Made by a program: the position numbers and the translations under genes. A DNA stretch of 64,000 nt from Membranipora membranacea (lineage: Eukaryota; Bryozoa; Gymnolaemata; Cheilostomatida; Membraniporidae). The notes below the pieces were generated by a model. It saw only the letters and a list, made by a program, of their open reading frames with translations, was not told where the DNA came from and did no database searches. Positions 393-54,627 of the stretch are shown one piece after another (positions within the stretch are counted from its first letter, which is position 1; each line of letters begins with the position of its first letter). The stretch spans positions 36,580,001-36,644,000 of the forward strand of contig OU612065.1 of the NCBI GenBank assembly GCA_914767715.1, written 5' to 3'.

Positions 393-11267
<10,875 letters not shown>

Positions 11268-20886: not shown

Positions 20887-20909
20887 GTGTTGAAGAGTGA
20901 TTTTCTCAG

Positions 20910-21914: not shown

Positions 21915-22357
21915 TTTGGCTTTGGGGCAGTGCTTACCACACGGATTTCAGTATAGATTTGTTCCCTGAGGTATGTTTGATATTTGGGCAGGGATTCTCA
22001 GAGGCACACCCACCCTAGGGGTCAGTCAATTAGGTAAATATCGATTATAAGTATGCCAAATAATTTTCAGCTGCCGCCATTCACTTGACCTTGACCTTGA
22101 TTCTAATATAATTCTAAATAAAATCACAAATACATAGACTATGAAGATAGGTCTCTGTTTAGTTTAGAAACTGCCTTATGAAAATAGAGTTGACCTAGTT
22201 TGTATCATGTATCAGTTGTTCGCAGCCTTGAGGGGTGGTTGACAGTTAAAGGGATAGCAATCAGACAAAGTTGTGTGAAAGTCATGAGGAGTTTTGAGAT
22301 TAACGCTGTCTTGCAGCCCATTCAGTAACAACACATTGTTGTTGCAGTGAGTGAGAC

Positions 22358-24167: not shown

Positions 24168-24282
24168 ATGGATCCTCCACCAAAAGACTCTGCTAAGAGA
24201 AGAAGACTTAACCCACAAGGGACAGAAGAAAATGAGGAAGCTCAGGCTACAGGAATGGGTCAACCTGCTATTGATATGCAGA
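24168..24282 (+). CDS. Exon 1: start codon and basic N-terminus
   Basis: Begins MDPPPKDSAKRRRLNPQ and ends ATGCAGA before GTAAGT, leaving one base. The KRRRL cluster resembles a nuclear localisation signal. ATG 24168 is the first in-frame Met that keeps phase with exon 2 (A plus AG gives Lys). An untranslated upstream exon is possible. Confidence 0.7.
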
Positions 24283-27200
24283 GTAAGTTTTGGTTTATTC
24301 ACAATGCAAAGACCCTAATTATAAAGATTATAATACTTTTCAGTGGATTCAACCATTTACTCTTTTATCCACAGCGCTAAGACGCTTAACAAGTTTCTCT
24401 TCTGAGTAAACATCATGCCTACTCCATATATCATATCACTAATTTCAATTGCACCTGGACGGAACCTGAAGAAGAAATGAAATACTCCCTAATAGGACAT
24501 CACATTTCGTTGTTTTCCTCTCTTCACAAACAAGAAGACAGCCCTAGTTATTGCCAAAGCATGCGAATGTTTTAGTAGTGTAGTGTAGTGTTAGGCCACA
24601 CCGGGTGTCACATTGTCAAGGCTCTCAGGCTCTCCGCTATAATAACTCCTCTCATCGTGTAAACTTCCTATGGATACAATATTGCACAACCGATCAACCA
24701 TTTCCCTGTTTCTATATGAGATAACACTGATATTATTTGACACAAACTCTTTTCTGTTTTAATGTTGATTGAAGGAAAAAAAAACATTTTGTGCCACTGA
24801 TTTTTCACCATAACTTACAACCTTGTTCTAGAACACAATATATTAAGTGACGACCAAACTGCTGTTGATATTTATCAAATGTGAAGATATCGGGTCAAAA
24901 AAATTAAATAGTTAAGGTAGCCCTATCAGTTTTGTGAGCTCGTTTCTAACCATAACATCATATCAATAGTTTTATTATCCAGAATATTTCCTATATGATT
25001 GGCTGGTCAGCTTAGGTGTGGTGAATATACCCCAATTTCGTTTATATTCTATTCATATGCTATTGCTGAAACTTCTTTGGTGCTAACATCAACCAAACTA
25101 GGTGGTACGTTATGATGATTCAGACAAGTTATCAATCTTAAAATTTTAGGGAAAATATGTAACATCTTATAATCAGAGAACTTCTCTATTTTTTCTATAT
25201 TGATGTTCACAGAGTATTATAGAATCTGGTATCGAGATGACAGTGAACCAGATATAGACAAGATACCTTATAGACCGGAGTACAGGAGATTTACACTAGA
25301 AGAGCTTATATCAGCTACACAGGATCTCACTGTGACTCATATGTCTATCTGTGGAGATATAGCACCAGAACTCAGTCAGATAGCACCCCATCTAAAAGTG
25401 CTGAAGATAGAGGATATAACTGATGATGTAAAGTTAGAGAAGTAAGTAGATTAAAATCTATATAACAGACTGTATTGTGACCTCATACAGTACACAACGT
25501 TAGTTATTCTCATTATGACTGATAAATGTGATTTAGGTGCCCAGGTACTCAGGTGCAGTCCTTGTGATATTGTGCCATTATTTGTCCTTGGCTCATTTAA
25601 TTGAAGGTTTACACAATGGGCAATATCTAAATAATGTTCAATGTGCAAGGGGCAATATTCTTATTATGTCCTTCGACATACATACATTCGGACAACTCTT
25701 ATTTTATTCCGAATCCACAACTATTGCAATATATATTTGAGTTGTCCTCTTTTTCCAAATGGATTTACCCTGGCTGTCCCCCCTCCCCATCCGCCCACCC
25801 CCAACAGCCTGCCAAGGCTACCCATTGTGGAACAGAAAGATTATGGGAGAGTAATTTCTAACTCTTATTGGACTGGATAATTACATTTTAGCAATAATTA
25901 ATTGTTTTAAATCTCCAACATGTTCATAACGAGGGATCAGTTCTCAACTACAGTAGTGTATAAAACATTATTTTAGTTCAGTAAAATCTCATTTGATGTA
26001 AATCATGTAATAATCCGTGGGCTGAACAATTTTGTTTTGGTTATAACTAATTCTTATTGGACAGCATTACAACTCTAATAAATAAATTTAGAGATAGGAG
26101 AACTCACAAGTCTTAAGAAGCTAAATGTGTCTAAATGTTGCCTCACTCACCTGCCTAACAGGTACATAAACATTACGATTTCATGATTCCCAATATTAGT
26201 TCTTACATCAATGTCTCCATTGGTGATCAAATCACTCTAAATGTGATTTCAGATCTGTCAAAGGTAGTTTACAATATTGGTAGGTATAAAACCATGTAAA
26301 AACCTTTCTGTCTTAATACTTGGCATCCTGTTTGAGTTTCTGATAAAAGAGTAGCACTGGTACAGAATATGAGTATCATATTCTGATAAAATTGTAAGCA
26401 GTATTTTCATTCCTATTACACATTAAAAATTCGGCATAGGAAAAATAGGGAGCAGTTTCTCTATATTACCCTGGGTAAAGCAGTATAACTTTGTCCTGAG
26501 CCTTCTATAGATATAATGAGTGCTCTAATGCCACTATAGGTCAGTAGCTAAAATATGTACAATTAAATACTCAAAATGCTCCACTAAACGAGATAAAGCT
26601 GACAGTCCAACTCTAGAATTAAATGGTGTGGAAATAGATTGTTGTGACAATGTTAAATATTTGTACTCTTTGATAACAAATTACGTTTAAAAAAATCATG
26701 TTAATAATGTTGTAACAAAATCTTTGTTAGTTTGACCAAGGAGTAGTCCTTGGTTGGACTTTTTGATTCTTCCTTCTTATTCCATGTGATTCCCTTATCA
26801 TTTGGCATGTCATACTGTTTGAAAAGCTACTTCTTTCTTAGTCTTAGCTCATGGGCCCCTGGGACTTACATGCCTTACTTTACCAATGTCCAGTATCAAC
26901 CGCGTTTTTTTTTGGGGTGGTTGATACTTGACATTGGCAAAATGAGGCATGTAAGTCCCAGGGGCCCATGGCTTAGCTAGTAGAGATTACCTGGAGTAAG
27001 TAGATTTTTTTAAATTCAGTATTGTGATCTACAGGCATCGACACACAGACATCAATTTAGTCTATTAGTCGTGTTGAGATCACATGATCAGAGTACGTGT
27101 ACCAGCAACCTTTTTCTCACAGCTTTTACAGTCGGTGATGGATACCAATCAGTTAATCAAAACTCCATGCTACAACCAGTTGTGGAATGAATAGATGATG

Positions 27201-30200
27201 AATAAATAGCATTGAAAGTAGAATGTTTATTATTTTGATGAGGAGTGCTGATACCACCACAATATAGAAAACATAGCCTTTATTCTTGACAGACAGGTTT
27301 CTGGGAGATTATGAAGTAAAAACATCTATCAATCATCATTCTATCTCCTTGTTACAGTATGAGAACACTAACCAGCATAGAGGAAGTGAATATATCTGAT
27401 TATAAGCTGGAATCCTTACCAGACTGGATTGGAGAACTCACGAGTCTTAAGAAGCTAGATGTGTCTCAGTGTTGCCTCACTCACCTACCTAACAGGTATG
27501 TGAACACTATGATTCCATTATTCTCAATAAAAGTTTTTACTTCAGTATCTTTATTAGTGACTCTAAAAGCACTCTTAGATCACTCATCTTAGATCACTCA
27601 TCTTGTACTTTTAAAACAATATTAGCTTCAATTAGCATGCCTGAAACCCAGCAACAATATGATAACAGGATATGATATTAACTCATGACTTCTTGAGCGT
27701 GGAGAATTTTACAGATATACATTGATTAAAGGGATAATACACTTCTGATCTCTGTTTGGCAGCCAATGGAGCACAGAAAAATGTATGTACATACAAAAAC
27801 TCCTTATTTGTAATTCAAAACCCCTTGTTCTGCTCAAATGTGCATTCTAAATTGTAGTTGTGCATCTCCAACAAGAAATAAGACAACTAACAGAATTGCT
27901 TGTGATCTGAAAAAAGCCGATTTTGTGAGCAGTTGTGTGCTCCTACCTCTTGGTTAGTGTTTCAATTGTCTAGATACTCAAAGTGCGCATGTGCAACAAG
28001 GATGACCTTTTGACTTTAGCTTGTTATTTTCTAACAGCCCAGCTTAACACTTTTATTACCATAACCGGATATGGTAATAAATGTGTTAAGCTGGGCTGTT
28101 AGAAAATAACAAGCTAAAGTCAAAAGGTCATCCTTATTGCACATGCGCACTTTGAGTATCTGGACAATTGAAACACTAACCAAGAGGTAGGAGCACACAA
28201 CTGCTCACAAAATCAGCTTTTTTCAGATCACAAGCAATTCTGTTAGTTGTCTTATTTCTTGTTGGAGATGCACAACTACTATTTAGAATGCACATTTGAG
28301 CAGAACAAGGGGTTTTGAATTACAAATAAGGAGTTTTTGTATGTACTTACATTTTTCTGTGCTCCATTGGCTGCCAAACAGAGATCAGAAGTGTATTATC
28401 CCTTTAATGTAATATAGCTACATAATATTTGCGGTTTTAGTTTCTGCATGGTGGTATTCATCAGTGGTAGCAGTTGATTTTTTTTTAAAATTTGGATATC
28501 AATTTAAAAGTCACTAACATAACAGAAGCAACATTGTTGCAAATAAATAGTCTGGTTGCAGTGTACTGGGAAAATAACAAGCTCTATTAAATACACCCAA
28601 AATTGATTTGAGAAACTAAGAGACACTTTGTGATCAAGATACACTGATATCTAAAACTGGTAATATTCACAAGTCGAGAGAACATAACAAATAAGTATTA
28701 AGTGTGCGATAGTGTCGCAACATATATCTCAAACATGTTAACCTATTTTTGGCCGTAATGCCTTGTAAGTATATCATTTGATCCCAGAGGTTTATCCCTG
28801 AAATTGTTTGTGATGCGTTCATAATAGTCTGAACTCTGTCAACTTTAAGTATGAGCAAGGATTCAAACTGTTCCCGACAAGATTTCCAATTTCAATGCTG
28901 TATCTTAGTTTCAATCTGTGAGAAATTGAGCTTCAGTTATAATGAGTAAGAAGCAATTTGTAAGCCCACTTTTAAAAGACCCAGTGAGTGGGCTTGGGGT
29001 TGCAAGTTAACATGTTGGAAGCAGTATAACCTTGTCCTGAGCCTTCTATAATATAACGAGTGTTCTAATGCCACTATAGGTCGTAGCTAAAATATGTAGG
29101 TAAATACTCAAAATGCTCCACTAAGCGAGATAAACCTGACAGTCCAACTCTAGAATTAAATGGTGTGGAAATAGATTGTTGTGACAATGTTAAATATTTG
29201 GGAGTACTCTTTGATAACAAATTACGTTTCAAAAATCATGTCAATAATGTTGCATTCATAAATAGTCCGAACTCTGTCATATATAAATATGAGCAAACTG
29301 TTCCCATAGAGAAGATTTCCAATTTCAATGTTGTATTTTGGTTTCAATCTGTGAGAAATTCTGCTGAACTCATGATGAGTCGGAAGCAATTTGTATGCCC
29401 ACTTTAAAAGACCCAGTGAGGGGGCTTTGGGATGCAAGTTAACATCTAGAGATTGAGTCCACCACATTTGAGAACATAGTTATTCACTTATAAGTCAGGC
29501 AAGGCAGTAGCGTAAATGTGTGGTCGATTTCATTGCTCAGAAATGATCTATCCCCTTGAGTTAAACCTGCCAATCCATCCTAGGTTGCCGATGGTCTTAT
29601 GCATAAATTTTCTTTCTGGGGGAACCTACCAGTTGTGTTGGTCTTTGGGACGGGTGTTAGCATAAATTAATTTTTTTTTGTGCTTTTACCTCAGTTTGAA
29701 ACTAACAAAAAAATTATCCTTTAATAATCAATTGCACTCAGATATGATGGTGATAAAATATTCACCTCAAAATAGACTAAAAATGAATGCAGTCAACATC
29801 AAATAACTTGTAACTTGATGTATTAGACATGAATTTTTTTTTTTACAAAATTGATATTTCTTATAATTGAGATTACTTACAAATTTAGCAGTAGGAAACC
29901 AGATAATATACACGTCGGATCATATATTATACTTATAATCTTATACTTGTGTATTAAAGAGCATAAACCATCTTATCCTCACCTATTTACTCTCCTTGTT
30001 GCAGCATGAGAACACTAACCAGTATAGAGGAAGTGAATATATCTGGGAATGAGGAACTGATATCCTTACCAGACTCGATTGGAGAACTCAAGAATCTTAA
30101 GAAGCTATATGTGTCTGATTGTGGCCTCACTCACCTGCCTGACAGGTAAGAAAAGAGACATTACCTGATGGTATCGGGGGGGGGGTTGGGGTTTACTCAA

Positions 30201-33200
30201 GAGTCTCAGAGAGATATCTATAGTTGAGTGTCCTATCAGACACCTACCTGAGAGGTAATTATATACTGAGTCACTCAGGACTATGATGACTGTATGTGGA
30301 TATTCTTAGTTCAGATCAGCATACTTTTCTACACACAAATCCCTGTCTTTGTAATCTGATAGAGTTTATGTTGAGGCTGGGCAACATCGAAAGATATCTT
30401 TACCTCAATCCAGGATAATAGAATTTACCAATTGCTGTTCAAATACTGACTAGTCAAAATAAGTTGGAAGTATATTTAATAATAATATTGATTGCACTGA
30501 TTGTTAGATTATTGGCAAAATTTTAAATCTAACCTTATCTGGAAGATTTCAAGAATCAAAACTTGGTAATTTTTCAATCCCAGACGTCGAACATGCCTCT
30601 TCCGCACCCTCCCATGTGCCAAGCACTTGCTGCCCTAAATAACTGCCAAGTTGTCTAGAACCCCAACAAAATCTAGTATTTAGTATCTAGTATGAATGGT
30701 ACATTTCACATCCATGACACAATAACCATATAAAACCAAGGAGTCCTTTCTCCTCTTCCCTATTGCATTTTATTGTCGAGCTTCCCTTCACTCAATCCTG
30801 CTTTGCGAATTCATTGTGTCACTACTGGGATTTTAACCAGTAATCTGCTAACCATTTACTATTACTCCATATGGGCATTCATATTAATAATACCATTTTT
30901 AACCCTGTTTTTGCATGCAAGGCAACTTCATTATTTTTAGCAGAGTACTTGTACCAGCAATCTTTTTCTCTCAACTTTTACAATTAGTGATAGATACCAA
31001 TCAGTCAATCAAAACTCCACGCTGCAACCAGCTGTGTAATGAATAGATGATGAATAAATAGCATTGAAAATAGAATATTAATTAGTTTGATTAGAAGTGC
31101 TGATACTACCACAATATAGAAAACATAGCCTTTATTCTTGACAGACAGGTTTCTGGGAGATTATGAAGTAAAAACATCTATCAATCATCATTCTATCTCC
31201 TTGTTACAGTATGAGAACACTAACCAGCATAGAGGAAGTGAATATATCTGATAATAAGCTGGAATCCTTACCAGACTGGATTGGAGAACTCACGGGTCTT
31301 AAGAAGCTAGATGTGTCTCAGTGTGGCCTCACTCACCTACCTAACAGGTATGTGAACACTATGATTCCATTATTCTCAATAAAAGTTTTTACTTCAGTAT
31401 CTTTATTAGTGACTCTAAATGCAATTTTAGATCACTCATCTTGTACTTTTAATACAATATTGGCTTCAATTAGCATGCCTGAAACCCAGCAACAATATGA
31501 TAATAGGATATGATATTAACTAATGACTTCTTGAGCGTGGAGAATTTTACAGATATACATTGATTATTGTAGAATGGGTTTAAAATACGCTGTAATATTT
31601 AACGTTTTTGTGCCAAAAATGGTTCTTAAAATTTTAACGAAAATACTATTCAACTATTGACTTGGCTTCATCAATTAATTTTTACTATTGACCTGACCTC
31701 AACAATTTATTTCTACTAGGTTTTCATATTGCTAGATAAGTACAAGCACAAAACAGCTGCTGCTTACAAAAATTATGTGCTCATGTCAGGAGGGTAGACA
31801 ACTCCAATCATAATATACCAGTGAGAGAGCAAGCAACTCCCTGACATTAAATAAATGTTGTCAAGAATGATTATATTATTGATTTTTTATTAGTTTTTAT
31901 TTTTACTATTCTATTGAGGTCGTTAATATCGTTAACAGGTATAGCGTTAATGAAACCCATTCTACAGTAAAGTAATAGTAGTAGCTACATAATATTTGCG
32001 GTTTTCGTTTTTGCTGGGTAGTATTCATCAGTATTCATCAGTGGTAGCAGTTAATTTTTTTTTAAAATTTGGATATGAATTAAAAAGTCACTAACATAAC
32101 AGAAGCAACATTGTTGCAAATCTATAGTCTGGTTGTAGTGTACTGGGGAAAATCACAAGCTTGATCAAATACACCAAATATTAATTTGAGTAAATAAGTA
32201 ATTTTATCAAGTTGAGAGAACATAACGAATAACTAATAATTAATTGTGCGAAAGTGCAGGGACATATATCTCAAACATGTTAACCATTTTTGGCCATAGT
32301 GCCTTGTCAGTATATCATTGATCCCAGAGCTTTATCCCTGAAATTGTTTGTGATGCAATGGCCTGCAATCATATATAGTCTGAACTCTGTCAACTTTAAG
32401 TATGAGCAAGGATTCAAACTGTTCCCACAGACAAGATTTCCAATTTCAATGCTGTATCTTAGTTTCAATCTGTGAGAAATTCAGCTTCAGTTATAATGAG
32501 TAAGAAGCAATTTGTATGCCCACTTTTAAAAGACCCAGTGAGGGGGCTTTGGGATGCAAGTTAACATCCAGAGATCGAGTCCACTACATTTGAGAACATA
32601 GTTATTTACTTATAAGTCAGGCAAGGCAGTAGAGAAATGTGTGGTCGATTTCATTGCTCAGAAATTACCTATCCCCTTGAGTTAATCCTGCCAATCCGAG
32701 GGTGTGGATGGTCTTATGCTTAAATTTTCTTTCTGGTGGAAACTACCAGTTGTGTTGGTCTTTGGGACGGGGCGTTAGCATAAATTTATGTCTTTGTGCG
32801 CTTTTACCCCAGTTTGAAACTGTAACAATTTTTACAAAAAAATTATCCTTTAATAATCAATTGCACTCAGAAATGATGGTGGTGAAATATCCACCTCAAA
32901 ATAGACAAAAAATGAACGCGGTCAACATCAAATTACTCGTAACTTAATGTATTAGATATGAATTATAATTTTTTTTCTTACAAAATTTCCCAAAATTTAT
33001 ACTTCTTATAATTGAGATTACTTACAAATTTAGCAGTAGGAAACCAGATAATACACACATCGGATCATATATACTTATAAACTTATATTTGTGTATAAGA
33101 GAGCATAAAACATCTTAACCTCACTTAGTCATTCTTCTTGTTGCAGCATGAGAACACTAATCAGCATAGAGGAAATGGATATATCCTTGAATTATAAACT

Positions 33201-36200
33201 GATATCCTCACTAGACTGGATTGGAGAACTCACGAGTCTTAAGAAGCTGAATGTGTCTTTTTGTGGCCTCACTCGCCTGCCTCACAGGTACATATACATT
33301 ATGATTCCATTATTCTCAATTATAGTTTTTACTTCAGTATCTTTATTAGTGACTCTAAATGCAATTTTAGATCACTCATCTTGTACTTTTAATACAATAT
33401 TGGCTTCAATTAGCATGCCTGAAACCCAGCAACAATATGATAATAGGATATGATATTAACTAATGACTTCTTGAGCGTGGAGAATTTTACAGATATACAT
33501 TGATTATTGTAGAATGGGTTTAAAATACGCTGTAATATTTAACGTTTTTGTGCCAAAAATGGTTCTTAAAATTTTAACGAAAATGTAATTCAACTATTGA
33601 CTTGGCTTCATCAATTAATTTTTACTATTGACCTGACCTCAACAATTTATTTCTACTAGGTTTTCATATTGCTAGATAAGTACAAGCACAAAACAGCTGC
33701 TGCTTACAAAAATTATGTGCTCTCGTCAGGAGGGTAGACAACTCAAATCATAATATACTAGTGAGAGAGCAAGCAACTCCCTGACATTAAATAAATGTTG
33801 TCAAGAATGATTATATTATTGATTTTTTATTGGTTTTTATTATAACTATTCTATTGAGGTCGTTAATATCGTTAACAGATATATCGTTAATGAAACCCAT
33901 TCTACAGTAATGTAATCATAGTAGCTACATAATATTTGCGGTTTTTGTTTCTGCTGGGTAGTATTCATCAGTGGTAGCAGTTGATTTTTTTTTTAAATTT
34001 GGATATGAATTAAAAAGTCACTAACATAACAGAAGCAACATTGTTGCAAATCTAACATCTGGTTGTAGTGTACTGGGGAAAATCACAAGCTTGATCAAAT
34101 ACACCAAATATTAATTTGAGTAAATAAGTAATTTTATCAAGTTGAGAGAACATAACGAATAACTATGAATTAAGTGTGGGAAAGTGCAGCGACATATATC
34201 TCAAACATGTTAACCATTTTTGGCCATAGTGCCTTGTCAGTATATCATTGATCCCTGAAATTGTTTGTGATGCAATGGCCTGCATTCATAAATAGTCTGA
34301 ACTCTGTCAACTTTAAGTATGAGCAAGGATTCAAACTGTTCCCACAGACAAGATTTCCAATTTCAATGCTGTATCTTAGTTTCAATCTGTGAGAAATTGA
34401 GCTTCAGTTATAATGAGTAAGAAGTAATTTGTATGCCCACTTTTAAAAGACCCAGTGAGGGGGCTTGGGGATGCAAGTTAACATCCAGAGATCGAGTCCA
34501 CTACATTTGAGAACATAGTTATTTACTTATAAGTCAGGCAAGGCAGTAGAGTAATGTGTGGTCGATGTCATTGCTCAGAAATTATCTATCCCCTTGAGAT
34601 AAACCTGCCAATCCATCCTAGGTTGCCGATGGTCTTATGCATAAATTTTCTATCTATCCCCTTGAGTTAATCCTGCGAATCCGAGGGTGTGGATGGTCTT
34701 ATGCTTAAATTTTCTTTCTGGTGGAAACTACCAGTTGTGTTGTTCTTTGGGACGGGTGTTAGCATAAATTTTTTTTTGTGCTTTTACCCCAGTTTGAAAC
34801 TGTAACAAAAAAAATTATCCTTTAGTAATCAATTGCACTCAGAAATGATGGTGGTGAAATATTCACCTCAAAATAGACTAAAAATGAATGCAGTCAACAT
34901 CAAATTACTCGGAACTTGATGTATTAGATATGAATTATGATTTTTTTTTTACAAAATTTCCCAAAATTGATATTTCTTATAAATGAGATTACTTACAAAT
35001 TTAGCAGTAGGAAACCAGATAATATACACATCGGATTATATTATATACTTATAAACTTATATTTGTGTATAAGAGAGCATAAAACATCTTAACCTCACTT
35101 AGTTATTCTTCTTGTTGCAGTATGAGAACACTAACCAGCATAGAGGAAATTGATATATCTGGGAATGAGGAACTGATATCCTTACCAGACTGGATTGGAG
35201 AACTCACGAGTCTTAAGAAGCTAGATGTGTCTCAGTGTGGCCTCACTCACCTGCCTCACAGGTATGTGAACACTATGATTACATTATTCTAAATAATAGT
35301 TTTTACTTCAGTGACTTTTGGATATAAATTAAAAAGTCACTAACATAACAGAAGCAACATTGTTGCAAATAAATAGTCTGGTTGTAGTGTACTGGGAAAA
35401 TAACAAGCTTATTAAATACACCCAAAATTGATTTGAGAAACTAAGAGACACTTTGTGATCAAGATACTCTGATATCATAAACTGGTAATATTCACAAGTC
35501 GAGAGAACTTAACAAATAAGTATTGAGTGTGCGATAGTGTCGCAACATATATCTCAAACATGTTAACCTCTTTTTGGCCGTAGTGCCTTGTAAGTATATC
35601 ATCTGATCCCAGAGGTTTATCCCTGAAATGGTTTGTGATGCATTCATAATAGTAATAATAGTCATAGTCATAGTCATAATAGTCATAATGTATTCATTAG
35701 TGATCAAATCACTCTAAATGTGGTTTCAGATCTGTCAAATAATATGTTTTTAATATCATTTAAAACTTTGATGCTGTTAGGTATAAAACTATGTAAAAAC
35801 CTTTCTGTCTTAATACCTGGCATCCTGTTTGAGTTTCCGATAAAAGAGTAGCACTGGTTCAGAATATGAGTATCATATTCTGATAAAATTGTAAGCAGTA
35901 TTTTCATTCCTATTACACATTAAAAATTCGGCATAGGAAAAGTAGGGAGCAGTTTCTCTATATTACCCTGGGTAAAGCAGTATAACCTTGTCCTGAGCCT
36001 TCTATAGATATAATGACTGTTCTAATGCCACTATAGGTCAGTAGCTAAAATATGTACAATTAAATACTCAAAATGCTCCACTAAACGAGATAAACCTGAC
36101 AGTCCAACTCTAGAATTAAATGGTGTGGAAATAGATTGTTGTGACAATGTTAAATATTTGGGAGTACTCTTTGATAACAAATTACGTTTCAAAAATCATG

Positions 36201-45200: not shown

Positions 45201-48200
45201 TTAATGTATTAGATAAAATTTATAATTTTTTTTTTACAAAGTTTCCCAAAATTGATACTTCTTATAATTGAGATTACTTACAAATTTAGCAGTAGGAAAC
45301 CAGATAATATACACATCGGATCATATATACTTATAAACTTATATTTGTGTATAAGAGAGCATAAAACATCTTAACCTCACCTAGTTATTCTCCTTGTTGC
45401 AGCATGAGAACACTAACCAGCATAGAGGAAATGAATATATCCTGGAATAGGAATCTGAAATCCTTACCAGACTGGATTAGAGAACTCACGAGTCTTAAGA
45501 AGCTATATGTGTCATATTGTGGCCTCACTCACCTGCCTAACAGGTATGTAAATATTATGATTTCATTTTTCTCAATAATAATTCTTACATCAGTGTCTTC
45601 ATCAGTGATAAAATGACTCTTCATGTGATTTTAGATATGTCAAAGGTAGTTTACAATGTGTTTATAATATCATATCAGTTAAATATTTGATACTGGTAGG
45701 TATAAAACGATGTAAGAAAATTTCTGTCTTGATATTTGGCATCCTGTATGAGTTTCTGATAAAAGAGTTGCGTTGGTTCTGCAATCAGATTCATACATAC
45801 CTTGGTCAGTTTTAGGTATATTATCAGCACGATATCTCAAATATTGAGTGAATGACCAACCTTATAAAATGTGACAAACTGAATAACGCTGCCAACAAAA
45901 GGGAAAGTGATGAAAAAATAATGATAGAGTTTCAAAACATCCAAAATCTGAAAGAGCATGTCATAGTTAGTGGATCTACAAGTTGACATGAGTCTACCAT
46001 CATAAATAGCCGAGATGTGGCCAACAACGGTTGCAATGCCCCAATATATCACCTGTATATAAACTATCATTGAAACGACACCTGGGACTTACATGCCTTA
46101 CTTTACCAATGTTCAGTATCAACCGCATGTTTTTTGGGGTGGTTGATACTGGACATTGGCAAAATAAGGCATGTAAGTCTCAGGGGCCCATGGCTTAGCA
46201 TAGTAGAGACTACGTGGAGTAAGTAGATTTTTTTAAATTCAGTATTGTGATCTACTGGCATCGACACACAGACATCAATTTAGTCTATTAGTCATGTTGT
46301 GATCACATGATCTGTAGACCATAGAATAAAATCGGACAACTCTTATTCTATTCCGAATTCACAACTATTGCAATTTATTTTTGGGTTGTCCTCTTTTTCC
46401 AAATGGATTTACCCCGGCTGTCCCCCCTCCCCATCCGCCAACCCCAAACAGCCTGCCAAGGCTTCCCTTTGTGGATCAGAAACATTATGGGAGAGTAATT
46501 TCTAACTCTTATTGGACTGGATTATTACATTTTAACAATAATTAAATGTTTTAAATCTCCAGCATGTTCATAACGAGGGATCAGTTCTCAACTGCAGTAG
46601 TGTATAAAACAGTATTTTAGTTCTACTCCAGTGGCAGCCTACCAAAAATGTGTCTAGAAATGCAACTTCATTTACGGATTTGGATGGATAAATTCTAAGA
46701 GTGGATTCTGGGGTAGTTTTTTGAGGCGGTCGCAATGGTGACGATGTACATTACACAAATTTGCTCCATAGGCAGCAAATTGCCAAAAGCGCTGCCAAAA
46801 ATGGCCAAAGTTGCTGTTTTTTAAGATTTCAAAGGCCTGTCCTGTGCTCACCTTATGAGTTGGGCTGCTCAAACTCTGCAATCAGATTCATACATACCTT
46901 GGTCAGTTTTAGGTATAATATCAGCATGATATCTCAAATATTGAGTGAATGACCAACCTTAAAAAAGTGACAAACTGAAAAACGCTGCCAACGAAAGGGA
47001 AAGTGGTGAAAAAATGATGATAAATAGTTTCAAAACATCTAAAATCTGAAAGAGCATGTCATAATTTGTGGATCTACAATTTCACATTGGTCTGCCATCA
47101 TAAATAGCCGAGATGTGGCCAACAATGGTTGCAATACCCCCATATATCACCTGTATATAAACAATCATTGAAACGACAATTTGGCAGAACAATAGTCTGG
47201 TTGCAGTGTACTGAGAAAATAACAAGATCTATTTAATACACCCAAAATTGATTTGAGAAACTAAGAGACACTTTGTGATCAAGATACAATGATATCATAA
47301 ACTGGTAATATTCACAAGCCGAGAGAACTTAACAAATAAGTATTAATTGTGCAATAGTGTCGCAACATATATCTCAAACATGTTAACCTCTTTTTGGCCG
47401 TACTGCCTTGTAAGTATATCATTTGATCCCAGAGGTTTATCCCTGAAATTGTTTGTGATGCATTCACAATAGTGAATGTTCTAATGCCACTATAGGTCGT
47501 AGCTAAAATATGTACGTAGATACTCAAAATGCTCCACTAAACGAGATAAACCTGACAGCCCAATTCTAGAATTAAAGTGTGTGGAAATAGATTGTTGTGA
47601 CCATGTTAAATATTTGGGAGTACTCTTTGATAACAAATTACGTTTCAAAAGTCATGTCAATAATGTTGTGACAAAATCTTTGTTAGTTTGACCAAGGAGC
47701 AATTGATTTTTTGTTTCATGTGGGTATATAATATGTCTGAAAATACTTAATCATGATTGGAATTAATTCTCGTTCAATTTTAGTCAGATATTTGTCTATG
47801 TCTGTTAGTCTATGCGATACTGCCTTTTGAAGTCTTTTTGGCGATTAGAGAAAAATATCACAGGCTACATAAAATATAGCCAATAGTGATTCGGGTACAC
47901 TGATATCACGAATTGGTAATATTCATTAGTTGAGAGGACATAACAAATAACATGCAAATGAATAAATTCTGGTGAAATTGCCCTCTGTGCCACCATACTC
48001 CTAATTGTTCAACTGGTTCTACTGATAATAATTGTGTAAACACTGTGTTAAGTCTGAAATATTGGCGATTTATAGAGGATTCGACAACAAAAATGATGAA
48101 AAACATCAAATGTTGGAATCATGAGCAGTTAACAATTCAAGATGACAAATGCTCTGGTGAAACAATAATAATGATACATCTGTTTGAGATGTCCGGTTAC

Positions 48201-51200
48201 CTAATACAGTGTGACATGACTTCTTGTGAAAATCTGATACATGTTTACCTATTTGTTGCCTTGTAAGTGCCTTGTAAGTATATCATTGCCCCTGAAATTG
48301 TCGGTTATAGTCCAAACTATGTCATTTTGGGAACATTAGCAAGAAATCAAACTGTTCTACCAAGAGGATTTCCATTTCAATGCTGTATCCTGGTTTCCAA
48401 TTAGTATCTATCTCTTTGTGTTAATCCTACCGATCCATCATAGGTTGCGAATCCTCATTTCATGCATTGATTTGCTTACTGTGGACACTTCAAGTTGTGT
48501 TGTTCTTACTAAGTTTTTTATAGATCCTGCATGCAGGGCTTGGAGCATGTATAATAAGGATTTTTCATATGAATGACTTTTTCCTTTCACCTCGCTGAGG
48601 CCAATTCTCGCTACCTTCGTACACACATTGATAAAATGGCCTTTATCTTTTCCATCTATTTTTATGTAGCCGTGTTCTAAGTGGATCTCTGAACAGCAGG
48701 TTCCTTTACGTTCTTGGAAGTATCCTTCTTGAGGTTTTCAATTTTCATCAGCTCTCTCAACAAGGAATTTAGCTTTATAGCAGTATACTTCAACTTCTTG
48801 GTCAGATTCCAGCGCCCCAGGTTCGCCGTGGTCGGTAGTTGATCATAAGCTGCACCAACCAAAAAGCTGATACTTTGTGGCTCCATCGACCACATTTCTG
48901 TCCATTTGATTGGTATATTATTCCTCCTCTCTAATACAAGATATCAAAGACTGGTATCTGAACTTATTTCTCTTTTGTAGCATGTCAAAACTGGTAAATT
49001 TGGAGACACTTGATCTCGGAGATAACCCCTCTCTCCTCTCAATCCCTGCTGGTGTCTGTCAACTCAGTAAACTGTACAAAATAGCCTGTGGTGATTGTAA
49101 AGCACTGACGAGTCCTCCATATGCTGTCTGTACACAGGGGCTTGCTGCAATGAGAAAATACTTTACAGATCTGGAAGAAGATAGGGAGACGAACATAAAG
49201 TTTGTTCCAGTCACTGTTTTTGGTCAAACCATGGCCGGAAAAACCAGTCTTGTTCGGTCAATGCAGAAAAATGAACGTGTTTTGACTTTGCGATGTGACA
49301 ATAGCAAGCTAGATGAGGCTACCAAAGTGTTCAAGGTGTGCGAGGCAGAGGTCGATGACAAATACAAATTAGTATTCCATGACTTTGGTGGGCAGGCGAT
49401 TTATCAGTTTGCCTACCAATTGTCAGATAGATCCCAGTACATTCCCATGCTCGTCATAGACATTGCTGAATTTGACCGTCTGGTAACTGAACAGGGAGAA
49501 GAAGTTGCCTGTGAAACAGTTTGTTTTCAATGGCTCTCCCACCTCTACCTTGCAAGCCCCAAGGCAGGCCCGCCATTTGTAGTGTTGACCCACTGTGATG
49601 TTATTGATAGCCAAATCTGCGAAAATAGGCTGAGATTGCTGATAGAAGTATCAGAACGCTTACGATCAATATTATTAAAGGAGGAGAAAGCCATGGTACC
49701 AGAGAAAAGCCCAATTTTGATCATGAAAAGTTTCCAGGATACATCCCAGCCCCTTCTCACTCATCACACACCACGCTTCTTTGACAAAGATTCTGCCACT
49801 GAAGTAATTTGTGGTCTGAAAACCTTCCTCGTGTCTATCGGATTATCGCTGCTCACAGAAATACCAGGTAGCTGGTATGTTCTGATGGAACTGTGTGCAA
49901 ACAACAAGCAGCCATACCTGACGCTGGAAGAGCTGGACAAGCTATTTCCTGGTGACAAAGATCGTGTAATTCTTCAATACCTGAATGAAATAGGAAGAAT
50001 CAAGTGGTACAGGAATAGAGAAAACCTATCCAATATAGTGTTCCATCGAATCGAGCTGCTCACACACCTGATCGAGTTGCTCTACGACCATTCCAGAAAG
50101 GATACCTGGGATCAGCGGATAGAGAGTTTCCAAGCTTTTGAGGATGTGAGTCAGGATGTGAGAATAAACAAAAGGAAATACAATGACATGATTAGATCCT
50201 TCCTAGACACTGGGGTCATACGGGATATTCTGCTACATCATCTAATCAGCCAAGAATCTGAGGTTAGACCTGAGGTGGCAATAGAAGTATTGAAGGTGTT
50301 CCATCTGATCTGCGGTCCAGTACAGAAGGGTAGTGAGAGTCACTACGTCATCCCATACTTCAGTCCGAGAGTAATCACAGTAGAGGAATCTGAGAAATAC
50401 ATCCCTTTGAAAGTTGACATTTTTTTCAATGGATTGGCACTTCCAAGCTATGCATATGATCTGCTTACAGCAATATATGTCAACCTCCATATCACACCTT
50501 CCAATCACATTGATGTCGGCTGCAACGGTGCTTGTGTTAGTGAAGACAACGGCACAATCAAGTATTTATTTCACGACCATATTGAGAAAACCGTCACACT
50601 TATCATACTATCACCATCAGAAGAAATAGCCACATCCTGGGGCAGCCTGCTGAACACTTTGCAACATCTGACATCACAACTAGAAGAAGTATGGAAGGGA
50701 GCTCACTGGGAGAAGGTATTTTACTGCTCACACTGCCTGCTTGCTAAACAAGACAGCCTACACACTCAGGTGGATCCGGAATGGCTGACCCTAAAAAGGC
50801 CACCCTATACTGGCAAAGAAGTTTCTGTCTGCAGTGAACCCCCTACAGCCCAAGGCCGATTATCAGTTCCACGTCCGTTCATCTATCCATGTTAGTACCG
50901 CTAGAATTATGTTTATAAACTCATGTGCAGTTGGCGTTTAAGGCATGATTTGAATGTTGCTGGTTGCATTTTTATGTCTCTTTCTGTATCTGTATTCTCT
51001 CTGCAAATCTACATGAATGTTATAATTAATAGGCGGCAGCATTACTGAAAGAGGAATTAAAACTTTGGACGAGTACTTGTCAAGTATTGAAACAGGACAG
51101 CATCAGGCAGGTAGGTAATTACAGAGTTCATGTTCGGTGATCGAGAAAAATCAAATTTAAAAATCTAATATATACCTCTGTCAGAACAATAACCATGGAA

Positions 51201-54200
51201 TTGTCAATGGTTGAACATGTCCACCTTTCCGGACTTTTATTGCTGTCACGCAGGACAAGCAAAGTTAGGTATTGGATTGGAGCATCGGTTGATCTACGGT
51301 CTTGAAATGCTTTTATTCCCAGCCTTAGCCTGAGTGCTCAACAAGTGCGTTCGAGTTGCTGTTGCCTCTTTTCAATCTAAATCTAGTTTCTGTTGTTGCT
51401 CATTTGTGACAATTCAACAACAATAATAATTTCACAATCTGAAAACCCCGTTTTGTCATTTTTTTAAACACATATCGTGTTTTTTTAGCGCAGATGCATT
51501 ATTTTCTCAATCTTTCCTTTTGTCACATGTTATAGTATTCATATTGTTTGTCTTTACAGCCTCAGCAACTTCACAGTCTGGTAGTTCACACATTCAACGT
51601 GCTGTACAGGTATCACAAATTGATGATATCGTGAATGAAGTGAACTCTGATCAGGTTCTGATCAGTCATGAGCCAGTTACAGCTGATCCATCGAACACAT
51701 ATCTGAAGAATCAGGTAATTGAGTTGTCCAGCTTTTGCTATCAAAAAAGGCATGCTGACCTGTGCGATTCATTTTGCTGTCTTAGAATTGCCCTCTCACA
51801 TTATCATCAGTTCTGTTAGTTCAGTTAAGTCCATACTTCCCATGCGTCCTCAACAAAACTTATTTCAATTGAAAGCTTTGCCAAGACAGACTAAAATGCG
51901 ACAATGAACACAGTGCAATATAAAATGCGCACTACATTTTACAACTTTGTTGATGTTATGTCTGCATGTCTTCATTGATCGGTTTTAGAGTGTGTATAGT
52001 GTGTCTAAAACTCGTGGAAGAGCACTGATAATATCAAACAGAGACAGGAGAACAGGCTCAGATCATGACAACGACAATATTAAACGAATGCTAGGCAAGT
52101 TCGGATTCATTACTGTTGGAGGACATGACAGCTACACTGCGCAGGTAATGAATCTTCCACACAGCACTGCAAAATCCCGATACATTCAGTACATGACAAT
52201 AAATGTGTCTATTGAAACCATTACAGTTGAGAGAAATTAATTTGAACACTGAAAACTACTTAATTTAAACTTTGCTGATTTAAATGATGCATGAGTGAAA
52301 CCCTGGGCAATGAACATTAATTTTGATGAATCACCCAAATATTTCCACTGACTTCATGAAATGTGTACAATGAAAAATACTACCACGGTTATTTACACTG
52401 TTGTGGCACCTAGCCTAACCTGTCTGGAATCAATATATCCAAATATCAAACTTCATAGTATCATTTAACTTGGAGAGGTAGATGGATGTAATGATCCGGT
52501 GGGGATTAAGTGGAATTTACTCCTTGTTTTATGCTCTTTGCTTAGGAAATAGTTGCCGCTATTCATTCAGAGACACAACTAGTAGACCCACTGACAAATG
52601 AATCAGTACACGAACAGCTACACTCATTTGTGCTAGTCATCGCGAGTCACGGACATGAGGGATCTGTATCTGGTTCTGATCGTAGACATCTCAAAATCAC
52701 AGAGGTTATAGACCTACTCTCCCCTAAAAACTTTCCTGCTATGAAAGGGAAGCCAAAGCTCGTGATTATACAGGCGTGTGCTGGCAGTAAGTCTGTAAAT
52801 CTGTATAAGAATATAAAGACAGCTACCTAAGCTTTCAAAATACCTGCAAGTCTTCATTCAACTCTAGTAGAAAACTCATTTTATATGCTCAATAGAAATA
52901 TGATTGATTATCAAATACTATGACACAACGCTGAGAAGTTGGCTATCGAGTCTAATTAGTATACATACAACCTGTTAACATCCTACACTATTGTTAAGTG
53001 AACCACAGTAAGCTCTGAGCTATTAAGTTTTAAAGAAAAAGTTAACATTACCCATCTGGACACATTAAATCAAGTTCTTTGGATTTTCATCTGCAACCGT
53101 TCTGATTTGTTTGATAGATCCTTATTGGATCGGGTCACTAAAAGCCAAGATAACATGACTTTGCAGGTAAGAGAGAGATGTTTCTCATGGACCCACCCCC
53201 TCCAAGACCTGCACAAATTCAGAATCGACCGGATGTCGGTAATATCAATCAGTCTTCTGCCCACACTTCTGATGATGACAGTGATATCAATGAGGAAAAT
53301 GATGAAGCAAGCAATCAAGACATTGACGAAGACAGCGGTGAAGACAGCAGTGAAGACAGCGGTGAAAATGGAACTGAGTCATATACCCTCGACCCTAGTG
53401 ATATCTCTACATCAGACTTCATGATCATGCAGTCCAGCTTTGATTGTAAGTAGAGAACAATTTCCAACCTTGGTAACCTAAAGAAAATGAATACAGCGAT
53501 TGGTCAGCTGTAGCATTACTGATTTAATACACCAAAAAGAAAGCTCTAAGTTGGTCCTTTTCCATACAAAAACAAACAAGTTTCCCGATCCATGCATTGC
53601 ATGCATGTTTGGTTCTAGAAACAAAGTCAATTTGCTAATCTAAAAATTGATTCAGCACTTCAGCCATTGAGACGCAGGAACAGTGAAGGTCGAGTTAAAT
53701 ACAGGGGCAATCACAGCATGATTGTTTTATGACCAAATTTACTTTGACGAAATCAATTTAGATTGTTTTAGTTTTCATATTATGATGTTGTTTTCCTACA
53801 GTGTTCAAGTCACCACGGAGACATACAGTTGGCTCGACGTTCATTCGATGCTTGGTATCAGTGTTCTACAGATATGCTGATAGATATCATCTCAGGGAGC
53901 TGGCAAAAATGGTAAGTGATTGTACGATTAACATGTCGATTACCTTTCCTTGGTGAAAGTGCATAACATCAATTTTAGCATGAGTTGATGATAACTATAT
54001 TCATTCCAAATCATTGGAAGATTCATACTTAGCTCTAGTCACATCCCTTGTTTCTCAGGTAGGGGAGGCTGTAGCTAAAGCTGGAACACTGAGAACAGAA
54101 TATCTGCTGAGGACTCGTAGATACAATGGAAGTTTTGAGAATGCTTTTCGTGCCTCGATGCCGCAGACCAGATGTACATTCATTGAAAAGGAGTTCTATC

Positions 54201-54627
54201 TACAGCCTGGTATCAATATGAGAACAGAGGATGGGCAAGAGGATCATCCAGAATCACTGAGAAACCCTGTGCTCCCGGATAACACGTATACTAAAATAGA
54301 GCAGAAACCTAGTGAGTGATAAGAGCTATTTTGAGCTGGTATTTATATTATTTATTTGCTTATGCTTATTATTGATTTTGGTAATCAACCCTTGTGTGGC
54401 TTCTCTTTCTGAGGGGGGATGGGGTAATTCAATGATTCAAACAGTGACAGTAAATAACAAAATACAAAATGAATACGCAAATAATTATATTGATGGCAAT
54501 CTCGCATGATATATTTTATACCATATCTTCTGTTTTTCAAGATTTGATACAACGATTTGAGAGAGCAGGAGAGATAAACCTGAAGAAAACTTATTATCAG
54601 TGGAGAGTGAGAAAGAACCCAACATGA
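24168..54627 (+). CDS. LRR-Roc-COR-caspase fusion protein (predicted 1577 aa)
   Basis: Exons: 24168-24282, 25213-25441, 27358-27495, 30005-30145, 31210-31347, 33147-33287, 35121-35261, 42211-42351, 43674-43814, 45403-45543, 48981-50890, 51033-51110, 51560-51714, 51989-52144, 52546-52786, 53167-53445, 53802-53911, 54059-54311 and 54542-54627. Coding length is 4734 nt and every junction is phase-compatible with GT/AG ends. Residues 1-115: novel N-terminus with an NLS-like KRRRL. About 116-488: sixteen LRRs in eight cassettes, then one or two more LRRs. Roc GTPase: P-loop GQTMAGKT (570-577), DFGGQ (623-627), THCD (692-695). COR about 750-1040. Caspase from RGRALIISN (about 1212), His in SHGHEG (about 1290), Cys in QACAG (about 1333), acidic linker, p10 from about 1429. 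No kinase and no DEATH/CARD domain seen. Domain calls are secure. That all exons form one mRNA is inferred from phase and orientation. A likely cytosolic immune or cell-death receptor, by inference. Confidence 0.85.
25213..25441 (+). CDS. Exon 2: N-terminal cap region of the LRR domain
   Basis: Encodes about 76 residues starting YYRIWYRDDSEPD and including FTLEELISATQDL and HLKVLKIEDI. I do not recognise a named domain. The second half has LRR-like spacing and probably caps the LRR solenoid. It ends with two bases of an Asn codon completed by either T or C at the start of any LRR cassette. Confidence 0.75.
26093..26161 (+). pseudogene. Relic LRR cassette (5'-truncated)
   Basis: Retains the second half of a cassette (IGELTSLKKLNVSKCCLTHLP-like sequence) up to the donor site, but the first half and the normal acceptor are missing. 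Its length would break phase if spliced in. Evidence of repeated duplication and loss in this array. Confidence 0.8.
26850..26970. mobile_element. Miniature hairpin of the CATGGGCCCC foldback family (copy 3)
   Basis: 121-bp hairpin whose arms of about 60 bp carry the family ends and the same CTTGGCAATGTCC-type inner motif. It is flanked by CTTAGCT on both sides (26843-26849 and 26972-26978; 7 of 8 positions match). It lies in the intron before the first intact LRR cassette. Parts of it recur at 41239 and 46081 with the same right-hand flank, so the later copies arose by segmental duplication and not by separate insertion. Confidence 0.88.
27358..27495 (+). CDS. LRR cassette exon 1 (subfamily A, 46 codons)
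   Basis: 138 nt, phase 2 to 2. Encodes two 23-residue leucine-rich repeats. Strand residues are NISDY in the first repeat and DVSQC in the second. The upstream intron carries the A-type flank (ACAGACAGGTTTCTGGG then CTCCTTGTTACAG). Confidence 0.92.
27730..28403. mobile_element. 674-bp foldback DNA element flanked by TTAA
   Basis: Nearly perfect palindrome with arms of about 330 bp. It begins AGGGATAATACACTTC and ends with the inverse, and has TTAA on each side (27726-27729 and 28404-28407). TTAA target sites are the mark of piggyBac and Kolobok superfamilies. No coding capacity. It sits in the intron after the first LRR cassette, at the point where sister units carry a different insertion. 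Confidence 0.9.
30005..30145 (+). CDS. LRR cassette exon 2 (subfamily B, 47 codons)
   Basis: 141 nt, phase 2 to 2. Two LRRs. Strand residues are NISGN and YVSDC, and the loop GNEEL is one codon longer than in 138-nt cassettes. B-type upstream flank (GCAGTAGGAAACC, CTCCTTGTTGCAG). Confidence 0.9.
31210..31347 (+). CDS. LRR cassette exon 3 (subfamily A, 46 codons)
   Basis: 138 nt, phase 2 to 2. Almost identical to cassette 1 but with NISDN and DVSQCG. The downstream intron carries a 401-bp MITE (31567-31967). The frame stays open past the exon into the intron by chance. Confidence 0.92.
31567..31967. mobile_element. 401-bp mariner-like MITE at a TA site
   Basis: Ends TTGTAGAATGGG and CCCATTCTACAG, flanked by TA. 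Comparison with the sister unit at 27.7 kb, which lacks it, gives an empty site reading GATTAATGTAAT. The same element at the same place is present at 33507-33907. No coding capacity. Confidence 0.82.
33147..33287 (+). CDS. LRR cassette exon 4 (subfamily B, 47 codons)
   Basis: 141 nt, phase 2 to 2. Strand residues are DISLN and NVSFC. SSLDWIG replaces the usual SLPDWIG, and the end reads TRLPHR. B-type upstream flank, but its downstream intron is the same type as after cassette 3. Confidence 0.9.
33507..33907. mobile_element. Second copy of the 401-bp TA MITE
   Basis: Same length, ends and insertion point as the element at 31567-31967, with a few point differences. Its shared position shows it was copied along with the unit after insertion. 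Confidence 0.85.
35121..35261 (+). CDS. LRR cassette exon 5 (subfamily B, 47 codons)
   Basis: 141 nt, phase 2 to 2. Strand residues are DISGN and DVSQC, ending THLPHR. B-type flank. Followed by nearly 7 kb of intron filled with duplicated fragments and a 2-kb inverted-repeat element. Confidence 0.92.
36055..36232 (+). repeat. LINE reverse-transcriptase tail fragment repeated across the array
   Basis: Translates as a block containing LELNGVEIDCCDNVKYLGVL and FDNKLRFKNHVNNV, the conserved C-terminal region after the RT of CR1/Jockey-type LINEs. Related fragments occur at about 26560-26730, 29092-29262, 41003-41092 and 47505-47695, all in the same orientation. It is a different LINE from the one at 18-22 kb. 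Not a host gene. Confidence 0.8.
37816..39845. mobile_element. 2.03-kb foldback element with long TIRs and internal tandem repeats
   Basis: Inverted ends of about 330 bp starting TAGGCCAGAAGCAGC, flanked by TTT on both sides. The empty site is visible in sister units as ATTATCCTTTAATAATC. Between the arms are about four imperfect tandem units of roughly 130 bp containing GTACCCAGTTGTAG and CGGCAGCATATC. One unit is split by a copy of the 125-bp MITE seen at 912. No transposase. The structure resembles FB/Galileo-type foldback elements. Confidence 0.82.
38472..38593. mobile_element. 125-bp MITE nested in the foldback element
   Basis: Ends TAGAACAAATTT and AAACTTGGTCTA match the element at 912-1036. 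Flanking sequences GTGTAACC and GTGTACCC look like an 8-bp target duplication with one change. Shows that this family moved after the host element formed. Confidence 0.75.
40142..40190 (+). pseudogene. Relic LRR cassette cut by an AT microsatellite
   Basis: Starts like an intact B cassette, with acceptor and MRTLTSIEDVTI-type sequence, then runs into (AT)n and loses the rest of the exon and its donor. It is joined directly to a copy of the region that precedes the Roc exon. Confidence 0.85.
40205..40742 (+). pseudogene. Partial duplicate of the Roc exon and its upstream intron
   Basis: 40205-40666 matches 48520-48980, and 40667-40740 matches the first 75 bases of the Roc-COR exon, including acceptor and MSKLVNLEELELS. 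The match stops abruptly inside the LRR part and continues with array intron repeat. No GTPase sequence remains, so it cannot make a second Roc protein. Confidence 0.85.
41239..41319. mobile_element. Truncated hairpin element fused to a cassette acceptor
   Basis: Right half of the CATGGGCCCC hairpin family. Its left side directly abuts a B-type acceptor and the first four bases of a lost LRR cassette (41235-41241), marking a recombination breakpoint. Confidence 0.8.
42211..42351 (+). CDS. LRR cassette exon 6 (subfamily A flank, 47 codons)
   Basis: 141 nt, phase 2 to 2. Begins MGTLTSIEE. Strand residues are NISSN and NVSKC. A-type upstream flank (GACAGACAGGTTCCCGAG). Confidence 0.92.
43674..43814 (+). 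CDS. LRR cassette exon 7 (subfamily B, 47 codons)
   Basis: 141 nt, phase 2 to 2. Strand residues are DISLN and DVSGC, ending THLPDR. KKID replaces the usual KKLD. B-type flank. Confidence 0.92.
45403..45543 (+). CDS. LRR cassette exon 8 (subfamily B, 47 codons)
   Basis: 141 nt, phase 2 to 2. Strand residues are NISWN and YVSYC. DWIREL replaces DWIGEL. Last intact cassette before the Roc exon, 3.4 kb upstream of it. Confidence 0.92.
45790..46075 (-). repeat. Dispersed repeat with exon-like open frame
   Basis: On the minus strand it reads WGIATVVGHISAIYDGRL and ends in a donor-like site after TFYK. Copies lie at about 46880-47180 (same strand, with stops) and 36470-36720 (opposite strand). 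The reading weakly recalls an AMP-binding acyl-CoA synthetase segment, but I am not confident. Probably a captured exon fragment carried by a repeat. Confidence 0.4.
46081..46192. mobile_element. CATGGGCCCC-family hairpin (left end truncated)
   Basis: Same hairpin and same right-hand flank (GGCTTAGC) as at 26850-26970, lacking the outermost left bases. Best explained as part of a duplicated segment. Confidence 0.8.
48981..50890 (+). CDS. Roc-COR exon
   Basis: One 1910-nt exon encodes the last LRRs (LVNLETLDLGDNPSLLSIP), the whole Roc GTPase (P-loop GQTMAGKTS at 49228-49254 region, switch DFGGQ, specificity motif THCD) and the COR dimerisation domain with its downstream part. In Roco proteins Roc and COR act as one GTP-regulated dimer switch. 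The donor is T|GTTAGT, whose own bases form a TAG stop in frame, so retention of the next intron would give a protein ending right after COR. Confidence 0.95.
51033..51714 (+). CDS. Two linker exons between COR and caspase
   Basis: Exons 51033-51110 and 51560-51714 encode about 78 residues (GIKTLDEYLSSIETG; Ser/Gln-rich ATSQSGSSHIQRAV; acidic VNEVNSDQVL). No known domain. Phases fit COR on one side and caspase on the other. It corresponds in position to a caspase prodomain, and Asp residues here could serve as processing sites (inference). Confidence 0.8.
51989..53911 (+). CDS. Caspase domain exons (p20 and p10)
   Basis: Exons 51989-52144, 52546-52786, 53167-53445 and 53802-53911. p20 shows RGRALIISN, the substrate-pocket R-x-GSDHDNDNIKRML signature, catalytic His in IASHGHEG and Cys in KPKLVIIQACAG. 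An Asp/Glu/Ser-rich interdomain linker (DSGEDSSEDSGEN) follows, then p10 with SDFMIMQSSFD and RHTVGSTFIRCLVSVF. All elements of an active cysteine-aspartate protease are present. QACAG replaces the common QACRG. Confidence 0.93.
54059..54627 (+). CDS. C-terminal exons of the caspase gene
   Basis: Exon 54059-54311 completes the p10 helix (VGEAVAKAG) and adds a tail with RTEYLLRTRRYNGSFENAF and FIEKEFYLQPGI. Exon 54542-54627 encodes NLIQRFERAGEIN and KTYYQWRVRKNPT then TGA (54625-54627). The KTYYQW tail is duplicated at 61.4 kb. Confidence 0.88.

Follow-up and report, generated by a model that had tools for sequence, protein, structure and literature searches.

A predicted bryozoan family of Roco-caspases: leucine-rich repeats, a Roc-COR GTPase, and a caspase in one gene model of Membranipora membranacea

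We describe a gene model in a 64,000-nucleotide stretch of the genome of the bryozoan Membranipora membranacea (C1:36580001-36644000, hereafter the window), whose predicted product carries, in this order, leucine-rich repeats (LRRs), a Roc-COR GTPase module, a linker, and a complete caspase. Probably, this Roco-caspase joins an LRR sensor, a Roc-COR switch, and an adaptor-free caspase death trigger in one protein, and belongs to a family of recognition receptors. The joined model lies at 24168-54627 on the plus strand and consists of 19 exons with 4734 coding nucleotides in a single open frame, with GT-AG borders at 18/18 introns, which bears out the structure proposed in the initial annotation. 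The observation is larger than first noted, and concerns a bryozoan family of Roco-caspases.

Domains of the window protein and continuity of the gene model

The NTPase of the window protein has the Roc fold and possesses the P-loop GQTMAGKT as well as the DFGGQ and THCD motifs, and COR follows directly after it. Among 30 loci (L009-L038, the window's own included), DxGGQ and THxD are present in 30/30 and the P-loop in 29/30, the only one without it (L028) being a locus whose match begins past the P-loop. The Peptidase_C14 profile is covered in full (1-233 of 233, E 2e-27), placing the caspase at model residues 1212-1512. It aligns with CED-3, the best sequence match in the PDB, although p10 does so only weakly. 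In this alignment, the segments RRTGSDHD and SPRRHTVGSTF correspond to RNGTKAD and SWRNSARGSWF of CED-3, and their arginines are presumably residues of an Asp-specific S1 pocket, a predicted specificity. The predicted protein holds a full p20 and p10 caspase with the catalytic His and Cys. These catalytic residues (His-Gly and QAC) are kept in all 20 central exons picked from the Pfam matches, the window's own included (19 SHG, 1 THG). GTP binding and hydrolysis by Roc and proteolysis by the caspase are both predicted activities, and the acidic intersubunit linker (IDEDSGEDSSEDSGENG) may offer Asp-Ser sites for self-processing. Neither a kinase or WD40 domain nor a NACHT or NB-ARC domain is among the Pfam matches of the joined model (E 0.01), and PADLOC gave no match at E 0.01 for three proteins.

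The exons of the model are as follows.

24168-24282, plus strand: exon 1, N-terminus (MDPPPK...) with a putative start codon
25213-25441, plus strand: exon 2, N-terminal region (WYR...THM)
27358-27495, plus strand: exon 3, two LRRs, phase 2-2
30005-30145, plus strand: exon 4, two LRRs
31210-31347, plus strand: exon 5, two LRRs
33147-33287, plus strand: exon 6, two LRRs
35121-35261, plus strand: exon 7, two LRRs
42211-42351, plus strand: exon 8, two LRRs
43674-43814, plus strand: exon 9, two LRRs
45403-45543, plus strand: exon 10, two LRRs
48981-50890, plus strand: exon 11, last LRRs, then Roc GTPase and COR
51033-51110, plus strand: exon 12, conserved linker (GSITERGIKTLDEYLSS)
51560-51714, plus strand: exon 13, linker
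51989-52144, plus strand: exon 14, start of the caspase large subunit (Arg in RRTGSDHD)
52546-52786, plus strand: exon 15, caspase catalytic His (SHGHEG) and Cys (QACAG)
53167-53445, plus strand: exon 16, acidic intersubunit linker and start of the small subunit
53802-53911, plus strand: exon 17, small subunit (SPRRHTVGSTF, putative S1-pocket Arg)
54059-54311, plus strand: exon 18, end of the small subunit
54542-54627, plus strand: exon 19, C-terminal tail and stop, the least certain of the exons

The initial annotation saw a single gene for sensor, switch, and protease, and this is supported by collinear proteins of Watersipora subatra, a conserved linker exon, and the pairing of Roc-COR with caspases in the genome. 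Since the model and predicted Watersipora proteins can be aligned collinearly along about 1400 residues, splicing across 50.9-52.0 kb appears well supported, and one mRNA would carry both halves. Residues 45-1431 of Watersipora P0063 align to model residues 65-1472, P0067 covers model residues 279-1520, and P0071 covers 151-1530; exon 2 also has matches in P0067 and P0072 (E 1.3e-8 and 1.2e-5, respectively, against a set of 36 proteins). Roco and caspase structure matches both come from one predicted model of Watersipora P0062 (mean predicted local distance difference test score 73.0), and one predicted protein of Bugula neritina (P0050) combines Roc with a COR-A below threshold and an incomplete Peptidase_C14. 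Linker exon 12 was found at E < 1e-3 in 21/25 loci listed (the window's own included), a list that does not extend to L034-L038; three of the other four (L026, L030, and L032) were sliced in the wrong orientation and do not count as a test. In several Watersipora proteins, its sequence immediately follows the closing PC of Roc-COR. After exon 11, in-frame Met codons are absent up to residue 1237, which already lies in the caspase, and stops at 51023 and 51986 close the frames upstream of exons 12 and 14.

Since two copies on C11 (L039 and L040) hold LRRs and Roc-COR within single open frames of 2053 and 1744 codons, no splicing argument is needed to place these two parts on one polypeptide. 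In both, many near-identical LRRs of 23 residues follow one another in the frame that also encodes Roc-COR (L039 1-6830, L040 1-5904), and 62 of them were counted in L039. This layout differs from the window's one exon per LRR pair. We considered these intronless copies as proof of a fused mRNA and rejected them as such; their frames end before the caspase exons.

Broken LRR exons lie among the working ones (26094-26162, 40144-40179, and 40667-40741). They include a half exon, an exon that a TA repeat splits, and a copied stretch made up of the beginning of the Roc-COR exon and the intron that precedes it. This suggests that exon duplication and loss are still going on. Elsewhere in the window, the minus strand carries a retrotransposon of the long interspersed nuclear element type at 18215-21947, with RVT_1 in two frames (E 8e-30, and E 1e-5, below cut-off), an endonuclease (E 1e-13), and a sub-threshold PHD-like finger, coinciding with an AT-skew at 18-22 kb. 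An exon with a Helicase_C domain (E 1e-14), SNF2-like by eye, lies at 3245-3748 on the same strand.

Family size, selection, and module exchange

In the 339,339,785 bases searched, we found at least 109 Roc-COR matches, 69 in a first search and 40 more on C3 and C5. This number is a floor, as the best 69 of 285 and 65 of 482 Roc-COR candidates and the best 140 of 515 caspase candidates were scored. PF00656 lies within 6 kb downstream on the same strand in at least 49 of the first 69 matches (933-3000 nt), while no listed PF00656 lies upstream (0/69) or on the opposite strand on either side (0/69). Among the further 40, at least 15 are paired with a caspase and none is wrongly oriented, giving a total of at least 64/109 with a listed Pfam caspase within 6 kb downstream on the same strand. 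The remaining 45 copies have no listed caspase match, and caspase exons are present downstream in all five of these that were opened (L041-L045), with no non-caspase effector in any of the five; in L040, a His-Gly exon was seen. The caspase of L045 is window-like, with His-Gly and QAC in the same exon (E 1e-34). L041-L044 belong to a divergent class, in which an exon with SHG or THG is followed by a QAC exon running into the small subunit. This second exon scores 22.6-41.3 bits against a Peptidase_C14 cut-off of 21.4 (4/4 above), and the first scores 14.7 bits in L041 and L042 and has no Peptidase_C14 match in L043 and L044. The divergent class, which also includes L039, is marked by a QACQ motif and by a small subunit that shares an exon with the Cys. 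These caspases sit on the same Roc-COR family, and for four of these five loci no match is listed in the genome-wide Pfam search.

The ratio of nonsynonymous to synonymous substitution rates (dN/dS) is 0.10-0.26 for Roc-COR in seven pairs with dS > 0.3, and 0.31 for L017-L021 (dS 0.10). The catalytic exon gives 0.09-0.20 in nine comparisons whose dS is measurable and > 0.6, and 0.08-0.33 in four near-identical ones. Several dS values > 1 are near saturation. Rows L055 and L056 (34 and 38 codons, wrong frame, ratio 0.68) were set aside as artefacts, and L061 and L063 because of saturated dS. These ratios indicate that purifying selection acts on Roc-COR and caspase where copies have diverged.

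The eight LRR exons of the window give a pooled dN of 0.129 and dS of 0.116 (28 non-independent pairs). Their three most variable columns, with 5, 5, and 6 residues in the eight exons, fall on position eight or ten of the LxxLxLxxNxL motif, and three residues occur at position five of this motif in the second repeat. In the 62 LRRs of L039, entropy peaks at motif position nine (3.0 bits), followed by positions seven (2.2), five (1.45), and eight (1.4), with a repeat-collecting pattern that restricts the residues preceding these positions. The two sets of variable positions overlap and are not identical. In LRR proteins, such motif positions belong to the exposed face of the strand or are next to it, and the LRR exons appear to vary most at exposed positions.

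Copies L010-L012 are 92-100% identical to the window throughout from 48685. L013-L016 are 96-100% identical to it from 48985 to about 50485, then 90-92% over the next 300 bases, and only 50-68% across the linker and the first caspase exon. This sharp drop in identity, at about 50.5-50.8 kb, marks a breakpoint that seems best explained by exchange of the caspase module or by gene conversion of Roc-COR. Near-identical Roc-COR sequences are thus joined to two different caspase modules in one tandem array (L013-L016 versus window 48985-52385).

Proposed working and alternatives

The most likely working of the protein is a ligand-controlled induced proximity of caspases via Roc-COR. In this intracellular protein, the diversified LRR array would sense a ligand, the Roc-COR module would change both its bound nucleotide and its oligomeric state, and C-terminal caspase domains, two or more of them, would then meet and activate each other through induced proximity, so that cell death would begin without a CARD, DED, or Death adaptor. 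Because the LRR exons vary and caspase modules appear exchanged between copies, the family probably forms a germ-line repertoire of recognition receptors for pathogens, and possibly for foreign colonies too. More tentatively, it could constitute a one-protein apoptosome, in which more than 100 germ-line LRR-Roco-caspases with varied ligand faces and exchangeable caspases would kill cells touching pathogens or foreign colonies. If true, this would be an animal parallel to the plant NLR repertoires, but with a Roco switch in place of an ATPase.

Several observations speak against the main interpretation, that of induced proximity in a single Roco-caspase. The domain search on the joined model that the initial annotation suggested found Peptidase_C14 complete, while Roc and COR-A stay under the Pfam cut-offs. 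The one-mRNA fusion is a prediction from genomic DNA and predicted proteins, and 12/26 Watersipora proteins lack PF00656; these may be truncated models or members that truly have no caspase. The 109 matches include partial ones (two among the first 69), and one of the 69 has an internal stop; five of the 45 copies without a listed caspase match were read out in full. Six close Roc-COR pairs have dN/dS of 0.46-0.86, and some recent copies may be decaying. The LRR dN/dS is about 1 and not clearly above it (the same 28 pairs, no significance test). Finally, the initial annotation proposed that GTP drives Roc-COR dimerisation, which is doubtful in light of the Roco protein of Chlorobium tepidum (CtRoco): in the passages concerned, it is described as mainly a dimer with GDP or without nucleotide, and as a monomer with GTP (PMC5714945, PMC11052575). 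By analogy, the direction of the switch may be the reverse, with the GDP-bound or nucleotide-free dimer being either the active form or a locked inactive pair, or animal Rocos may differ.

The locked pair is the basis of the foremost alternative, which we regard as rather unlikely: within a single gene, the Roc-COR GDP dimer would hold the caspase off in a non-productive arrangement, and ligand or GTP would free monomers that are clustered by a membrane, the LRR ligand, or a scaffold. The CtRoco data are in line with this, as are the N-termini of Watersipora P0067 (MGAKSS) and P0072 (MGCSLS), which by motif rules we take to be putative acylation signals hinting at membrane anchoring of some members; however, the window protein itself has no acylation-type N-terminus. 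It is less probable still that the family serves normal colony biology, namely the regression and replacement of feeding units, instead of foreign recognition. Cyclic polypide degeneration is established in bryozoans, yet more than 100 copies with LRR variation at a few exposed positions would be unusual for a developmental switch. Least probable are two neighbouring genes, an MFHAS1-like LRR-Roc-COR gene and a separate caspase gene co-inherited through tandem duplication: the unspliced Roc-COR frame does stop at 50893-50895, just beyond the donor, a single A[AT]TAAA hexamer occurs in 50891-51989 (at 51056, though within exon 12), and PF00656 is missing from the Watersipora models mentioned above, but predicted proteins of both Watersipora and Bugula run across the junction, the in-phase linker exon is conserved, exons 12-14 offer no in-frame Met ahead of the caspase behind their closed upstream frames, and the pairing persists in copies as low as about 45-48% protein identity, not just in recent duplicates.

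Known relatives and significance

The proposed adaptor-free trigger can be compared with several known systems. Like MFHAS1/MASL1-type animal Rocos, the window protein has the order LRR-Roc-COR; to our knowledge, MFHAS1 has no C-terminal protease, whereas the window protein continues into a caspase. LRRK2 and LRRK1 end in a kinase and WD40, and we know of no protease in CtRoco. With the initiator caspases CED-3, caspase-9, and caspase-1, the window protein shares the p20/p10 organisation, the His/Cys pair, and the putative S1 arginines, and a caspase fold is predicted in Watersipora P0062. Initiator caspases carry CARD or DED prodomains and need adaptors, whereas the N-terminal part of the bryozoan proteins is LRR-Roc-COR. 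NLRs and Apaf-1 work alike in tying a repeat sensor to an NTP switch and a caspase output, but their switches are NACHT or NB-ARC ATPases and their caspase is a protein of its own.

The initial annotation knew of no well-described protein with this layout, a view that does not hold. Among bacterial LRR-AP-GTPase-COR conflict proteins, caspase is one of at least 24 C-terminal effector domains in the passages of the survey concerned (Kaur et al., 2021; PMC8195603), so that the order seen in the window protein is already known in bacteria and hence not wholly new; 14/26 Watersipora subatra matches also carry PF00656, under the database names "MFHAS1 homolog" or "uncharacterized". According to the same passages, the bacterial proteins similarly combine N-terminal fast-evolving LRRs, an AP-GTPase with COR, and a variable C-terminal effector, with several paralogues per genome, but they use many effector types (PMC8195603), whereas the bryozoan copies examined have caspases only. 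Unlike them, ours is an animal family with a p20/p10 caspase nearest to CED-3 in the PDB and the 109 or more Roc-COR matches given above. The relevant passages of that survey report no animal protein of this order (PMC8195603). Among the openly licensed papers listed in our literature searches, none deals with an animal Roco-caspase, and a search on allorecognition yielded a single paper, in which the matches were entries of the reference list. A term search showed that caspases are not mentioned in the genome papers on Flustra and Bugula.

A tree of 21 rows groups the window protein with five named bryozoan rows and six metagenome rows in one clade (100/100), distinct from MFHAS1. This clade, together with the gastropod MFHAS1 homologue P0054 and with P0051, is split from seven rows including the named bacterial ones (94/90), a split that is not starred, with long branches flagged, in a tree that holds no bacterial Roco-caspase. 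This split and the CED-3-like caspase suggest an independent animal fusion rather than common descent with the bacterial one. No fusion outside bryozoans was among the matches listed (59, 39, and 10) in three protein searches, which reach only relatives sharing exact 5-residue words and, for the first two, the best 7996 and 7993 candidates.

The interest of the family rests on its size, its variable LRRs, and a direct switch-to-protease coupling that is testable. Variable sensing, GTP-controlled switching, and cell-death proteolysis, which animals normally divide among several proteins, would here be united in one. If true, animal caspase activation would be wired directly to a Roco GTPase without an adaptor, and the coupling of Roc-COR nucleotide state, oligomerisation, and C-terminal enzyme, a question also posed by LRRK2, could be read via a simple protease assay. 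With its Roc-COR matches in Membranipora and at least 14 caspase-bearing Watersipora models, the family provides candidate recognition and cell-death genes for a colonial phylum.

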